Of a stretch of DNA of 64,000 bases, positions 1-6,798 are shown one piece after another (the first letter of the stretch is position 1; each line of letters begins with the position of its first letter). The notes beneath the pieces were generated by a model, which saw only the letters and a list, made by a program, of their open reading frames with translations, was not told where the DNA came from and did not search any database. The stretch comes from Oryzomonas sagensis (GTDB lineage Bacteria > Desulfobacterota > Desulfuromonadia > Geobacterales > Pseudopelobacteraceae): positions 1-64,000 of the forward strand of contig NZ_VZRA01000007.1 in NCBI RefSeq assembly GCF_008802355.1, in the 5' to 3' direction. The translations under genes were made by a program, and so were the position numbers.

Positions 1-892
1 TGCCGCTGGCATCATAAGCCTTGGCGGAAAGGGTATAGCTGCCGTTGGCAATGGAGGCGGTATTCCAACTGTAGCTGTACGGGGCGGTATTGGCGGCATA
101 CAGCAGAGCGCCATTCTCATAAAATTCAACACTGCTCACTCCCACGTTATCACTGGCAGTGGCAGCGATGGTTACTGTCCCGCTCACCACGGAACCCGTG
201 GCCGGTGACGTCACCGATACCGTCGGAGCCGTCGTGTCGCTGCCCGCAACCGTTACCGAGACAACACCGGATTGCCCCACGTTGCCGGCGGCATCATAGG
301 CCTTGGCCTGCAGCGTGTAGCTGCCGGAGGCAAGCCCGGCGGTATTCCAGGAATACACATAGGGGGTCGCGGTGTCCGTGGCCTTAAGAACGCCGTTCAC
401 GTAGAACTCCACCTTCGTTACCCCCACGTTGTCGCTGGCGCTGGCATTGACCGAAACCGTGCCGCTCACCGTCGCACTTGCGGTCGGAGAGCTGAGGGAC
501 ACGGTCGGCGGGGTCAATTCGGGGATACTGGCGACATTCGAGTAGGAGCTTTCGACACCGGAGGCGTTATAGGCGGCAACGGCAAAGTAGTAGGCATGGG
601 CCGGGTCCAGTCCCGTGATGGTGGCGCTGGTCAGGCTCTGGACATCGAGAGGGGCCGCGCCCTGGGTGGCACCGGTCCCCTGAAAGGGCTGGGTGGCGGA
701 ATCTGCCTGGTAATAGACCTTGTAGCCGGTCACGCTCGGATCCGTATCGGCATCCCACTGGAGAACTATACTGGAGGCAAAACAGGTAGCTTGGGCAGCT
801 ACGAGTAAAACCATCGTGAGCAGATTGACCAAAAACAATCGGGACTCACCAATCCAGCCATTTCCTGTGTTCTTCCATGTAGCAGTTCTCAT
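1..892 (-). CDS. Exported FnIII / bacterial Ig-like repeat protein (3' end outside window)
   Basis: The gene runs off the left edge, so only about 297 codons are present. The ATG at 892 follows an AGGAG ribosome site and lies about 25 nt past the terminator of the riboswitch at 918-1030. A hydrophobic segment at residues 19-35 ending in CFA suggests Sec export; Met27 is a less likely alternative start. Residues about 40-125 resemble a fibronectin type III domain (LQWDADTDPSVTGYKVYY). At least two ~90-residue Big_7-like Ig modules follow, each with a DNVGV..VEFY core and a SYTL.AKAYDA end. No enzymatic domain is visible. Inference: a secreted surface or matrix protein whose expression is gated by the riboswitch and CRP-type sites upstream. 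The true C-terminus and any anchoring signal cannot be seen. Confidence 0.85.
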   Translation of the reverse strand, partial: MRTATWKNTGNGWIGESRLFLVNLLTMVLLVAAQATCFASSIVLQWDADTDPSVTGYKVYYQADSATQPFQGTGATQGAAPLDVQSLTSATITGLDPAHAYYFAVAAYNASGVESSYSNVASIPELTPPTVSLSSPTASATVSGTVSVNASASDNVGVTKVEFYVNGVLKATDTATPYVYSWNTAGLASGSYTLQAKAYDAAGNVGQSGVVSVTVAGSDTTAPTVSVTSPATGSVVSGTVTIAATASDNVGVSSVEFYENGALLYAANTAPYSYSWNTASIANGSYTLSAKAYDASG

Positions 893-917: not shown

Positions 918-963
918 AAAAAAGCCGGGGCCGATATACCTTTTGGTATTTCGGCGACCCGGC
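918..963 (-). terminator. Intrinsic terminator of riboswitch 1
   Basis: Read on the minus strand, GCCGGG..GCCGA.ATACC pairs with GGTAT.TCGGCCCCGGC around an AAAA loop and is followed by six T. The 5' arm contains the 3' strand of the aptamer P1 helix (ATACC), so ligand-stabilised P1 and the terminator should exclude each other. Inference: ligand binding favours read-through into the gene at 1-892 (an ON switch). Confidence 0.9.
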
Positions 964-1030
964 TGTCTCAAGGAGACCCTGTAGGCTTTCCGTCCCATCC
1001 TCGCGGATGGTTTAGTATTATCGTGTACCC
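945..1030 (-). promoter_or_regulatory. GEMM-I riboswitch 1 (predicted cGAMP type, GEMM-Ib)
   Basis: The minus strand carries the GEMM-I core: a GGTA/TACC closing helix, ATAATACTAAACCATCC, a GCGA tetraloop hairpin, GGGACGGAAAGCCTAC, a GTCTC..GAGAC helix and AGCCGGGTCGCCGAAA. Aligned by eye to the Vibrio Vc2 aptamer, the base at the ligand-contacting position 20 is A instead of G. Family knowledge: Geobacter GEMM-I RNAs with A20 prefer 3',3'-cGAMP over c-di-GMP. It lies directly upstream of the FnIII/Ig-like gene at 1-892, with its own overlapping terminator. Confidence 0.92.
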
Positions 1031-1046
1031 TTCTTTATGTAGTTCC

Positions 1047-1052
1047 TTTATC
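1047..1052 (-). promoter_or_regulatory. Candidate -10 element of a class II CRP-type promoter
   Basis: GATAAA (4 of 6 matches to TATAAT) on the minus strand would put the transcript start near 1040, ten nucleotides before the riboswitch. With that start, the nearer TGTGA-N6-TCACA palindrome (1074-1089) is centred at -41.5, the standard class II activator position. No convincing -35 box is present, which fits an activator-dependent promoter. This is inference from spacing only. Confidence 0.5.
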
Positions 1053-1073
1053 GCAGAAAGCCCCAAGTAAAGG

Positions 1074-1089
1074 TGTGACCGGTCTCACA
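1074..1089. promoter_or_regulatory. CRP/FNR-family operator, proximal copy
   Basis: TGTGACCGGTCTCACA is a perfect TGTGA-N6-TCACA palindrome, identical in its half-sites to the cAMP-CRP consensus. It is embedded in a 22-bp segment that recurs 41 bp further upstream with one change. Confidence 0.7.
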
Positions 1090-1114
1090 AAATCAAGGAA
1101 GTCTTCGTCAGAGG

Positions 1115-1130
1115 TGTGACCGGGCTCACA
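1115..1130. promoter_or_regulatory. CRP/FNR-family operator, distal copy
   Basis: TGTGACCGGGCTCACA is a second perfect palindrome. Its centre is exactly 41 bp (about four helical turns) from the proximal copy, so both would face the same side of the DNA and sit near -41.5 and -82.5 of the predicted start. Confidence 0.7.
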
Positions 1131-1621: not shown

Positions 1622-2764
1622 TCATTGAACCGTGGCTTTAAGATTCTTCGGCGCAGTCGGACCAGATGCGACACTGCCACCAAGAGTAACTGGATAACCG
1701 GACGCATTTGCGGTCCCGGTCGAATCGACAACATACAAATAAGCGGTTGCATTGCTTGCAAATCCACCTTGATTAACCGTCGCAACAATAGACCCAGCTG
1801 ACCACGACATGAGCGGCTGGATTTCGCAACTTTTCCGAGATGCCCATGTGGAGGCATCGCATAGTTCAACACGAGATTGGCTACCCTTTTGGACATAAAT
1901 ATCATCTTGCCAAACGGTTCCAGCCGTCTGGCCATTGCCAAAATAGTTTTGAAATTCAATAAAATTCCAAGCCGTTCCTAAAACATGTGTTTTCAAACCA
2001 GTATAAGTACTTGAGTGCAGAGTGCTTCCTGGCTCATAATGTGTAACAGTAACAGTGCCGTCCGATGCGCTGGTGGAAGAACTGGCTGTAAGGTAATAAT
2101 CCATTCTATGCCATGTTCCTTCAGTTTGTGGAAATAAGTTCGTGTCTATCCAGACGGTATGATCGTTGCTCGTATTAGGGTCCACGTAAAAATATGTCTG
2201 ATAAGTACCCCAGTTTGAAAACATTAGCTCTTGCGGTCCATCAACAATAGTATCATTTTGAGAAAATCTCAGCATTTTCCACTGATGATTATTGAGTCCA
2301 TTGCCAGTAGTGACTTTAACCCAGTATGATACAAATATGGACTCACCGACGCCTATCCCGCTTGGCAGCGAGTAGGAATAAGCCGCCTCTAAAGCACCGT
2401 CAGCTGTTGTAGTAACAGCTTTAAGGGATTTACTTCCACTATGCGGAGTATCGGTAGAATAGAGCATGTGTCGCCAGTCTTTATTATTGCTCCAATTATT
2501 CCTGGTAAACTCGGCACCGTCACTGCCAGCTTCAACGGCAGTACCTATCGACTCAAAGTTTGCCGTACCTGCCGAGGGGTTGCCGGTGAATCCTGAGCCA
2601 CCGATTGTAATGCTTAGCCCGTTTTGATATGTGCCGGCAGCGGATACAGCAGAAGAGGTGACACTCGCAGCAGATGTTGCAGTGCTGGCAATTGAAGTGA
2701 TAGAAGGTGTGGCGCCAGCCACCGATGACCACAGTATAGCCCCAATTACTAATAGTCTTTTCAT
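1622..2764 (-). CDS. Exported protein of unknown function, riboswitch-controlled
   Basis: 380 residues starting at an ATG with an AGGGAG ribosome site. A signal peptide is clear (MKRLLVIGAILWSSVAGA, cut after residue 18). After a Ser/Thr/Ala-rich stretch, residues about 48-75 resemble the start of an IPT/TIG-like fold (ITIGGSGFTGNPSAGTANF). The central 200 residues are rich in Trp, Tyr and Asn and look like a beta-sandwich of the concanavalin/polysaccharide-lyase kind (FVSYWVKVTTG; VWQDDIYVQKG). The final residues (PTAPKNLKATVQ) look like the linker that usually opens a fibronectin III domain, but a stop follows at once. I do not recognise a named family. Inference: a secreted carbohydrate-binding or matrix protein under the control of the riboswitch at 2882-2967. 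Confidence 0.85.
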   Translation of the reverse strand: MKRLLVIGAILWSSVAGATPSITSIASTATSAASVTSSAVSAAGTYQNGLSITIGGSGFTGNPSAGTANFESIGTAVEAGSDGAEFTRNNWSNNKDWRHMLYSTDTPHSGSKSLKAVTTTADGALEAAYSYSLPSGIGVGESIFVSYWVKVTTGNGLNNHQWKMLRFSQNDTIVDGPQELMFSNWGTYQTYFYVDPNTSNDHTVWIDTNLFPQTEGTWHRMDYYLTASSSTSASDGTVTVTHYEPGSTLHSSTYTGLKTHVLGTAWNFIEFQNYFGNGQTAGTVWQDDIYVQKGSQSRVELCDASTWASRKSCEIQPLMSWSAGSIVATVNQGGFASNATAYLYVVDSTGTANASGYPVTLGGSVASGPTAPKNLKATVQ

Positions 2765-2852: not shown

Positions 2853-2899
2853 AAAAAAACCGAGCCCGTTATACCAATTGTGGCATTTCGGCGACCCGG
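2853..2899 (-). terminator. Intrinsic terminator of riboswitch 3
   Basis: On the minus strand CCGGGTCGCCG..TGCCA pairs imperfectly with TGGTATAACGGGCTCGG, followed by seven T. The hairpin is less regular than those of the other two riboswitches but has the same overlap with the aptamer's closing helix. Confidence 0.75.
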
Positions 2900-2967
2900 C
2901 TGTCTCGTGGAGACCCAGTAGGCTTTCCGTCCCATTCTCGCGAATGGTTTAGTATTATCGTTTACCC
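2882..2967 (-). promoter_or_regulatory. GEMM-I riboswitch 3 (predicted cGAMP type)
   Basis: The minus strand has GGGTAAACGATAATACTAAACC, a CCATTC..GAATGG hairpin closed by GCGA, GGGACGGAAAGCCTAC, GTCTC..GAGAC and AGCCGGGTCGCCGAAATGCC. The closing helix is GGTA with TGCC, a G-U variant of the GGTA/TACC pair in the other two copies, which supports a conserved helix. Position 20 is A. The leader continues about 90 nt past the terminator to the ATG at 2764. Confidence 0.92.
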
Positions 2968-3014
2968 TATGATATTTCTTAAAATAAAAGCTAACAAAAA
3001 ACCAAATCAAATCA

Positions 3015-5439: not shown

Positions 5440-6798
5440 TTATTGTACCCGGCAAATGGAAAATCGGTATTTCCCAGATTTTTCAGGTTTGATACAATCT
5501 ACAAGCTTAATTGTCACATTAACACCATTTCCGAGCAATTTTATAAAATATTCAGACAATTCATATTGTGTACCTCTACTATAATCTAAAGCAGGAACTA
5601 CCAATAGAACAATCTGATCCATAGTTTCTTGCACAATCTGCAATTGTGCTATGCCGGAAAATTTCGTCAACGTATTTTCAATCAATGACACGCCAGCGAC
5701 CCTGGAACCATCCCTTCGGATCAAGTAATCCGCGACTCTGCCGGTAACTTGTTCCATTAAAGGCAGCCCCCTTCCGCAGGAGCACTTTCGTTCGCTTGGA
5801 ATCCCCATATCCTCAACCTGGTATCGGATAAAAGGCATTGCATAATTCATTAAATCAGTGATTACAATCTTACCTTGTTCTCCTGGCTTTGCAGGAGTAT
5901 TGTCTTCCTTCAGGAACTCAATGTAGAGATGTTCAATATTCAAATGCAAACCTTCGTGTTTCTCGCATTCAGATGCGATCAGGCTTAATTCCTCACAACC
6001 ATAACGGTCGGTAACTTTAACCCCAAAAACCGACTCAATAAACTTACGTTCATTTGGCAAAAGCATCATTGAGGTTGATAAGATGCCTCTAGGCTTTATC
6101 TCCTTGATTCCAAGCTTATTGACGTATTCCGCCAATATATAAAGAGAATGGGCATGACCATACAAAAGAGATGGTTTGGCGCGCTCCCATTCCGCCGCAA
6201 AAGTCTTCACGGCATGTTCCGTGACGTTCATGGTATCTAGATATATCAATGGGTTCAGCAGCCAGTTCTTTAATTTTCCTTTTATATCTTTAGGCAGCTC
6301 AGGATTTCCCCATACGGCACCAACGGGTTCCCCAACCTCCCACCCAGTCCATCTGTCATGCCGACGAGCACAGGCGTTGCGCAATTCGCTGCACTTTTCG
6401 GTGAGATAAACGTCAAGTGGCTTTCCCGTCGAGCCCCCGGTTTTATAGTGTTGTAGCTCTGCCGTATCAAAATCGCGACTGATCATGCGCAGCGTATTTT
6501 TACGAATGTCTTCTTTGGTTAGAAGCGGAATAACGTGCAAATCCTCGGGAGAACGCACTGATTCGGGAGTAATCCCGGCTTTTTCGAACCTTTCGCGGTA
6601 AAATGAGTTATTTTCCCATACATGGCAAAGCATGCGCTCAAGCCGTTGCCATTGCCTGTTTTTCAACTCCTCTTCCGGTAAAAATTGTGTTTGCTCCAAC
6701 TCGCGCCAGTATCGGAGGAGGGGACTGCCGTTAAGCCGGAAAATGAGCGGCTCGAACAGCTTGCGGCGTAGCAGCGACGATGTAATGCTACCCGGCAT
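5440..6798 (-). CDS. CapK/phenylacetate-CoA ligase-like adenylate-forming enzyme
   Basis: 452 residues with a strong AGGAGG ribosome site before the ATG. The adenylate-forming P-loop is visible as TGGSTGKPLDVYL near residues 119-131, followed by YGCEELSLIASEC (about 265-277), the substrate/AMP signature of the PaaK/CapK group, and a C-terminal hinge region. Family knowledge: such proteins recur in capsule and exopolysaccharide loci, where they are thought to activate an acyl group for sugar decoration; the exact reaction is mostly unproven. Its start overlaps the end of the upstream glycosyltransferase gene by 11 bp, so translation is probably coupled. It could supply an activated acid to the nearby GNAT-type or hexapeptide acyltransferases, which is speculation. 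Confidence 0.8.
   Translation of the reverse strand: MPGSITSSLLRRKLFEPLIFRLNGSPLLRYWRELEQTQFLPEEELKNRQWQRLERMLCHVWENNSFYRERFEKAGITPESVRSPEDLHVIPLLTKEDIRKNTLRMISRDFDTAELQHYKTGGSTGKPLDVYLTEKCSELRNACARRHDRWTGWEVGEPVGAVWGNPELPKDIKGKLKNWLLNPLIYLDTMNVTEHAVKTFAAEWERAKPSLLYGHAHSLYILAEYVNKLGIKEIKPRGILSTSMMLLPNERKFIESVFGVKVTDRYGCEELSLIASECEKHEGLHLNIEHLYIEFLKEDNTPAKPGEQGKIVITDLMNYAMPFIRYQVEDMGIPSERKCSCGRGLPLMEQVTGRVADYLIRRDGSRVAGVSLIENTLTKFSGIAQLQIVQETMDQIVLLVVPALDYSRGTQYELSEYFIKLLGNGVNVTIKLVDCIKPEKSGKYRFSICRVQ

Follow-up and report, generated by a model that had tools for sequence, protein, structure and literature searches.

In Vibrio cholerae, the gene gbpA has a promoter controlled by cAMP-CRP ahead of its c-di-GMP riboswitch, Vc1, and binding of CRP to this promoter drives transcription of a surface-attachment protein (PMC4545359). 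A predicted CRP site ahead of a GEMM-I riboswitch is also what we describe here for Oryzomonas, but at gbpA one gene responds to the global regulator cAMP-CRP, and the effect of c-di-GMP is reported to be independent of Vc1 (PMC4545359). The GEMM-Ib cGAMP riboswitches of Geobacter resemble the present case in that one genome carries many GEMM-I copies; the term CRP is absent from the main texts describing them, the promoter side being new here (PMC6456294, PMC8835794). In Geobacter sulfurreducens, the GEMM-Ib genes are ON switches (PMC6456294). The predicted promoter geometry is that of the class II promoters of Escherichia coli, in which CRP centred at -41.5 replaces the -35 element and a site at -82.5 measurably activates by itself (PMC6301791). 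A Crp/Fnr-family protein with TTGTGANNNNNNTCACAA sites, HcpR, is known from Desulfovibrio, with hcp, frdX, sat and apsAB as reported targets and no link to GEMM riboswitches given in that account (PMC545781). Among the open-access papers listed, we recognised a CRP-type site at a GEMM riboswitch for gbpA alone. Compared with this single-gene precedent, the arrangement in Geobacterales concerns several genes, and new are its repeated, order-wide pairing of site and riboswitch, the class II spacing that stays fixed and the presence of a Crp-family protein of its own, often encoded close by.

The window analysed is a stretch of 64,000 nucleotides from Oryzomonas sagensis, an iron-reducing soil bacterium. 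We consider it quite probable that in one region of this window a CRP-type promoter of class II is joined directly to the leader of a GEMM-I riboswitch and that this region works by the steps proposed below. The features concerned are the following.

1115 to 1130: distal palindrome TGTGA-N6-TCACA, exact match, centre 1122.5, at -82.5 from the predicted start
1074 to 1089: proximal palindrome TGTGA-N6-TCACA, exact match, centre 1081.5, at -41.5 from the predicted start
1047 to 1052, minus strand: -10 box GATAAA with TGC just before it (extended -10-like), read from the sequence and fitting the order-wide -10 peak
950 to 1026, minus strand: GEMM-I / c-di-GMP-I aptamer (RF01051, 44.0 bits, cut-off 35)
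918 to 963, minus strand: terminator with a U6 tail, its 5' arm being the 3' strand of the aptamer (from the fold of 1040-914)
1 to 892, minus strand: target gene, ATG at 892, running off the contig, Fn3-like and similar to a 578-aa protein on contig C11
3015 to 3030: third perfect palindrome, exact match, ahead of the second riboswitch of the window
2988 to 2993, minus strand: TAGCTT, a weak sequence standing where class II geometry would set the -10 box of the second promoter
2969 to 2974, minus strand: TATCAT, a competing -10 of the second promoter, which would set the palindrome at -60.5
2887 to 2963, minus strand: second GEMM-I aptamer (RF01051, 45.8 bits)
1622 to 2764, minus strand: open reading frame of 380 aa after the second riboswitch

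On the minus strand from 1140 to 890, the two palindromes are followed by TGC-GATAAA (1055-1047), the aptamer, the terminator and the ATG at 892. GATAAA agrees with TATAAT at four of six positions and, taken as -12 to -7, places +1 at 1040, 14 nt ahead of the Rfam aptamer (1026-950). The first-pass annotation had proposed two TGTGA-N6-TCACA sites with centres 41 bp apart, at the class II positions -41.5 and -82.5 relative to GATAAA, and a transcript starting about ten nt before the aptamer. Both CRP-type palindromes are indeed exact, and the centre near -41.5 agrees with the -10 box here and, at the same spacing, with a -10 peak across the order, the start position itself being a prediction; the start just before the aptamer stands as a predicted +1 at 1040, at 14 nt and not at about ten. 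The 41-bp tandem is kept in a second genome of the genus (G049, contig C12, 40047-40062 and 40088-40103). Allowing at most one mismatch, the window holds three matches to the palindrome versus 1.56 expected, and since 16 of 100 shuffles reach three, the count as such is unremarkable. Chance was nevertheless rejected as the explanation: what is significant is the position of the palindromes beside riboswitches, not how many of them the window holds.

This position was assessed in the whole genome (G000; 3.61 Mb, 18 contigs), which holds 21 matches to RF01051, 20 of them above the cut-off. Exact TGTGA-N6-TCACA occurs at six sites, the reversed control at none, and five of the six lie just upstream of four of the 21 GEMM-I riboswitches (two sites at L011, one each at L007, L005 and L008). 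Five of six sites falling by chance in 21 windows of 100 nt has a p of about 4e-16, a value that ignores paralogous copies of leaders, those on contigs C7 and C11 being near-identical. A fifth riboswitch (L003) has a palindrome with one mismatch, the other 16 matches have none with at most one mismatch upstream, and the sixth exact palindrome is located inside a 412-aa reading frame (L022:698-1936). The genome-wide enrichment at GEMM riboswitches on which the first-pass annotation had staked its proposal is thus found, and its double gate is the best-supported reading, extending from the one surface protein it had in mind to a small regulon of secreted-protein genes (four riboswitches with exact sites, a fifth with one mismatch).

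Among genomes of the genus, the share of exact palindromes that directly precede a riboswitch is 5/6 in G000, 5/5 in G049, 2/2 in G051, 2/4 in G052, 0/2 in G050 and 0/1 in G053. For 99 riboswitches of these six genomes, we scored sites with at most one mismatch at 45-110 nt upstream and found them at 15 of the 74 that belong to genomes with the candidate regulator introduced below (G000, G049, G051, G052) and at one of the 25 that belong to genomes without it (G050, G053), a contrast that is weak on its own; the reversed motif was found at 0/99. The -35 motif TTGAC is present in the last 80 nt of none of the 16 promoters with a site, versus 38 of the 83 without (p 4e-4), as expected of promoters that need an activator and in line with a class II promoter lacking a functional -35 element.

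Across the order we searched for a strict pattern, in which the palindrome is followed after 65-95 nt by the aptamer core, with the motif read backwards as control. It occurs in 22 of the 76 genomes of the family and in 33 of the 141 of the order, which include those 76, and the reversed pattern in none. For a separate multi-genome scan and for the regulator neighbourhoods treated below, an aptamer model was built here, its structure following the Rfam alignment. Among the matches listed in that scan (at least 80 stretches), part are without an aptamer by this model; aptamer-bearing records of Vibrio and Photobacterium (L074, L079, L085, L134) are also listed. The geometry was derived from 47 of 48 matches, leaving out one (G049 C25) with the same letters as a G000 row, which gave 36 non-redundant promoters after removal of those with more than 70% identity. 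In this set the position-averaged -10 score peaks (z 3.6, against 1.5 for the next best position) exactly at the offset that sets the centre of the palindrome at -41.5. The second position of the -10 hexamer is A in 26/36 promoters (0.72), a frequency matched at one other offset, in an A-rich stretch downstream, where the full -10 score is not matched. Because this peak is fixed while the gap from palindrome to aptamer core spans 75-95 nt, a spread of 20 nt, the -10 box tracks the palindrome and not the aptamer.

Two further observations concern the genes behind such promoters. Closely alike palindrome-riboswitch promoters precede a lipoprotein-like gene at L043, L046, L047, L050, L051 and L063; these genes start near-identically, form a second conserved target and belong to genomes with a more distant regulator type. 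In a Smithellaceae MAG (L132, 1766-2673), palindrome and GEMM aptamer stand ahead of a Crp-family gene whose product is 28% identical to the candidate regulator, making self-control of that gene possible.

The leader from 1040 to 914 folds at -48.1 kcal/mol (z -5.0) into a structure with a strong terminator built from the 3' strand of the aptamer, while the aptamer folded alone takes a different structure. A consensus terminator scan did not list the terminator at 918-963. Because the terminator takes up this strand in the leader fold, the riboswitch is predicted to act as an ON switch, as the GEMM-Ib genes of Geobacter sulfurreducens do. RF03167 scores 49.1 bits on the aptamer at 950-1026, under its cut-off of 59. 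As the ligand, 3',3'-cGAMP is plausible in place of c-di-GMP. A degenerate third GEMM copy is present at 1356-1432 on the minus strand (29.5 bits, under the cut-off), with no palindrome of at most two mismatches upstream and a counterpart in G049 (C12:40445-40521, 30.5 bits).

The 578-aa C11 relative of the product of 1-892 matches Big_7 and fn3 in Pfam, and the 380-aa frame at 1622-2764 has no match in Pfam or NCBIfam. Judged by eye, as was secretion of the target proteins, an Fn3-like segment lies near the N-terminus in 19 of 26 distinct downstream frames; others resemble lipoproteins or show no clear family membership, and in several the C-terminal end is a dockerin-like repeat. Pfam, run on few of these frames, listed no dockerin. 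The XrtA/PEP-CTERM proteins PrsK and PrsR follow on C11, above the cut-offs of TIGR02916 and TIGR02915 (NCBIfam), the histidine kinase and response regulator genes lying downstream of the locus at L153 7598-11112 (G000:C11). Since the window side holds frames that on inspection resemble a glycosyltransferase and an O-antigen ligase, the genomic setting is probably an exopolysaccharide/exosortase-type locus.

The genome contains four matches of cNMP-binding type. The Arg-Glu...Arg recognition helix of CRP reads TGTGA, and a CRP-type helix R-E-T-V-T-R occurs in two of the proteins, one of 237 aa (C11:4893-5606, minus strand) and one of 291 aa (contig C2). Two further Crp/Fnr proteins, at C1:1499546 and C1:597617, have the helices SETVSR and PLTVNR, are therefore not expected to read TGTGA and were set aside. 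The 237-aa protein belongs to the Crp/Fnr superfamily, with a cNMP-binding-type domain and a Crp helix-turn-helix that exceed their Pfam cut-offs (PF00027 90.3, PF13545 45.7 and PF00325 31.4 bits). It scores 79.3 bits against the NCBIfam CRP equivalog, which has a cut-off of 266, and lies far under all NCBIfam cut-offs listed. The R-E-T-x-x-R helix is kept in 61 of 61 distinct sequences of this regulator. In cyclic-nucleotide pockets an Arg-Ser pair holds cAMP; this pair is absent from the C11 protein, where Ser-Pro aligns with the Arg-Ser of 4ev0, and at that position Pro is invariant in all 61 sequences, the residue before it being S, Q, A, E or N. An E. coli-like cAMP-CRP was rejected as a name for the regulator on these two grounds, the CRP score and the absent pair, and by its sequence the protein is probably not a cAMP sensor. 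For the CRP-family activator that had been postulated, this particular Crp/Fnr-family protein is the likely candidate.

A search of the 141 genomes of the order for the 237-aa protein gave matches at 1e-20 in 84, of which 79 reached 1e-60 or better; the remainder are a fragment in G005 (58% identity), counted as regulator-bearing, and four weaker matches (G016, G053, G055, G137), counted as lacking it. The regulator is present in 33/33 pattern-positive and 47/108 pattern-negative genomes (Fisher 3e-10, ignoring shared ancestry), so that the pattern is found in 33 of 80 genomes with the regulator and 0 of 61 others, and 47 of the 80 are without the strict pattern. The same holds in the family (22/34 vs 0/42) and in genus g4 (12/20 vs 0/19), again with ancestry ignored. 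Among the positive genomes, the regulator is interrupted by a single in-frame stop in G086 and G126, and G005 is the one with the fragment.

In 14 of the 33 positive genomes, regulator and palindrome-riboswitch pair lie on the same contig at most 15 kb apart (G000, G006, G015, G020, G049, G052, G099, G100, G101, G112, G121, G126, G129 and G133), the closest being about 16 bp in G129 and less than 300 bp in G099, G100 and G101; G051 adds a linked case that the strict pattern does not cover, with the palindrome at 2391572 and the regulator at 2386537. On C11, outside the window, the regulator sits beside a paralogous target, in the order palindrome (2069-2084), aptamer (2132-2208), the 578-aa Fn3/Big_7 protein, a lipoprotein-like frame of 254 aa and the convergent regulator. 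G049 holds three palindrome-riboswitch genes and the regulator in one stretch, which suggests that contigs C7 and C11 adjoin in G000. We also scanned 40 regulator neighbourhoods for sites with at most one mismatch at 30-130 nt upstream of an aptamer found by the model: 28 of 38 sites were so placed, versus 0 of 4 for the reversed motif. Site-riboswitch pairs occurred in 20 neighbourhoods and not in the other 20, namely in 6/20 of those chosen without the strict pattern (16) or unlinked (4) and in 14/20 of those picked chiefly because the regulator was linked or was a distant one; the five around regulators of 46-52% identity (L271-L275) held none. At L256 (G095), perfect palindromes lie at 6112-6127, about 20 bp past the regulator gene, and at 6315-6330, 98.5 nt before the next GEMM aptamer.

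From the computed sites, their spacing and association with riboswitches, the co-occurrence and linkage of the regulator and the overlap of aptamer and terminator, we infer a double gate at initiation and elongation, with a predicted start site and putative activator binding, activation, ligand and effector. The activator would be a member of the Crp/Fnr family, in all likelihood the protein of 237 aa; it would bind the palindrome at -41.5, replace the missing -35 element and bring RNA polymerase to GATAAA, to which a second dimer at -82.5 may contribute. The transcript, beginning around 1040, would enter the aptamer at once. As long as no ligand is present, the terminator at 918-963 would capture the aptamer's 3' strand; with a bound cyclic dinucleotide, probably 3',3'-cGAMP, no terminator would form and the gene for the secreted Fn3/Ig-like protein would be read. 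Such an AND gate would be common to a small regulon and recur across Geobacterales. It would share with the E. coli class II promoters the -41.5 centre and the replaced -35 element, and would differ from them in having a putative activator without demonstrated cAMP binding and a transcript that begins in a riboswitch leader. A candidate source of the ligand is L224 (G000:C3:469734-470201), a GGDEF protein with GHLVGS: comparing the motif GHxxG(D/S) in 14 of 24 GGDEF matches (13 proteins, two rows being one gene), we found Ser where the others examined have Asp. We take this to be the Hypr signature position, which by sequence would make L224 a candidate Hypr cGAMP synthase.

Several other readings share part of this evidence. 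The palindromes might be read by the 291-aa Crp/Fnr protein (C2:145909-146526), which carries the same R-E-T-V-T-R helix; G053, without the main regulator at 1e-60, encodes relatives of it (36% and 35% identical to the query) and carries a single site, with one mismatch, ahead of a riboswitch. However, no more than 9 of the 33 pattern-positive genomes contain such matches (E 1e-20 or better, 34-39% identical to the query). No linkage of the 291-aa type to these promoters was noticed, the neighbourhoods scanned being those of the main regulator, and we hold the 291-aa protein to be an unlikely reader. That the bound protein acts instead as a repressor or roadblock, blocking RNA polymerase from -41.5 so that the gate combines de-repression with the riboswitch, draws on the ability of Crp/Fnr proteins to repress and on the overlap of this site with the -35 position; in E. 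coli some promoters with a site at -40.5 are activated and some repressed (PMC6301791). The lack of TTGAC at site-bearing promoters, expected where an activator is needed, and the -10 box keeping its -41.5 spacing both speak against repression, which we judge very improbable.

Inheritance without selection, the palindrome having travelled with copies of one promoter-aptamer cassette, would fit the near-identity of the C7 and C11 leaders and the likely orthology of many order-wide matches, but the same spacing in the 36 promoters left after redundancy removal, the differing downstream frames and a G051 site ahead of an aptamer of another sequence type make it the hardest of these readings to credit. 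A bolder form of the double gate holds that regulator and riboswitch co-evolved, that the regulator itself senses cGAMP or c-di-GMP and that nearly all members of its perfect-consensus regulon are riboswitch leaders; one messenger would then be read twice, the same signal being checked at initiation and then at elongation. We put this forward as speculation, unlikely as a whole.

Riboswitches are often studied as though their promoter were constant. The double gate, by contrast, predicts which riboswitch genes would remain silent despite the presence of the cyclic dinucleotide. With a concrete candidate regulator named, gating by two signals at initiation and elongation can be tested in culturable strains. 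In this order, to which electroactive soil bacteria belong, one particular transcription factor seems to be paired with some of the GEMM riboswitches, at fixed spacing and often with the genes linked.
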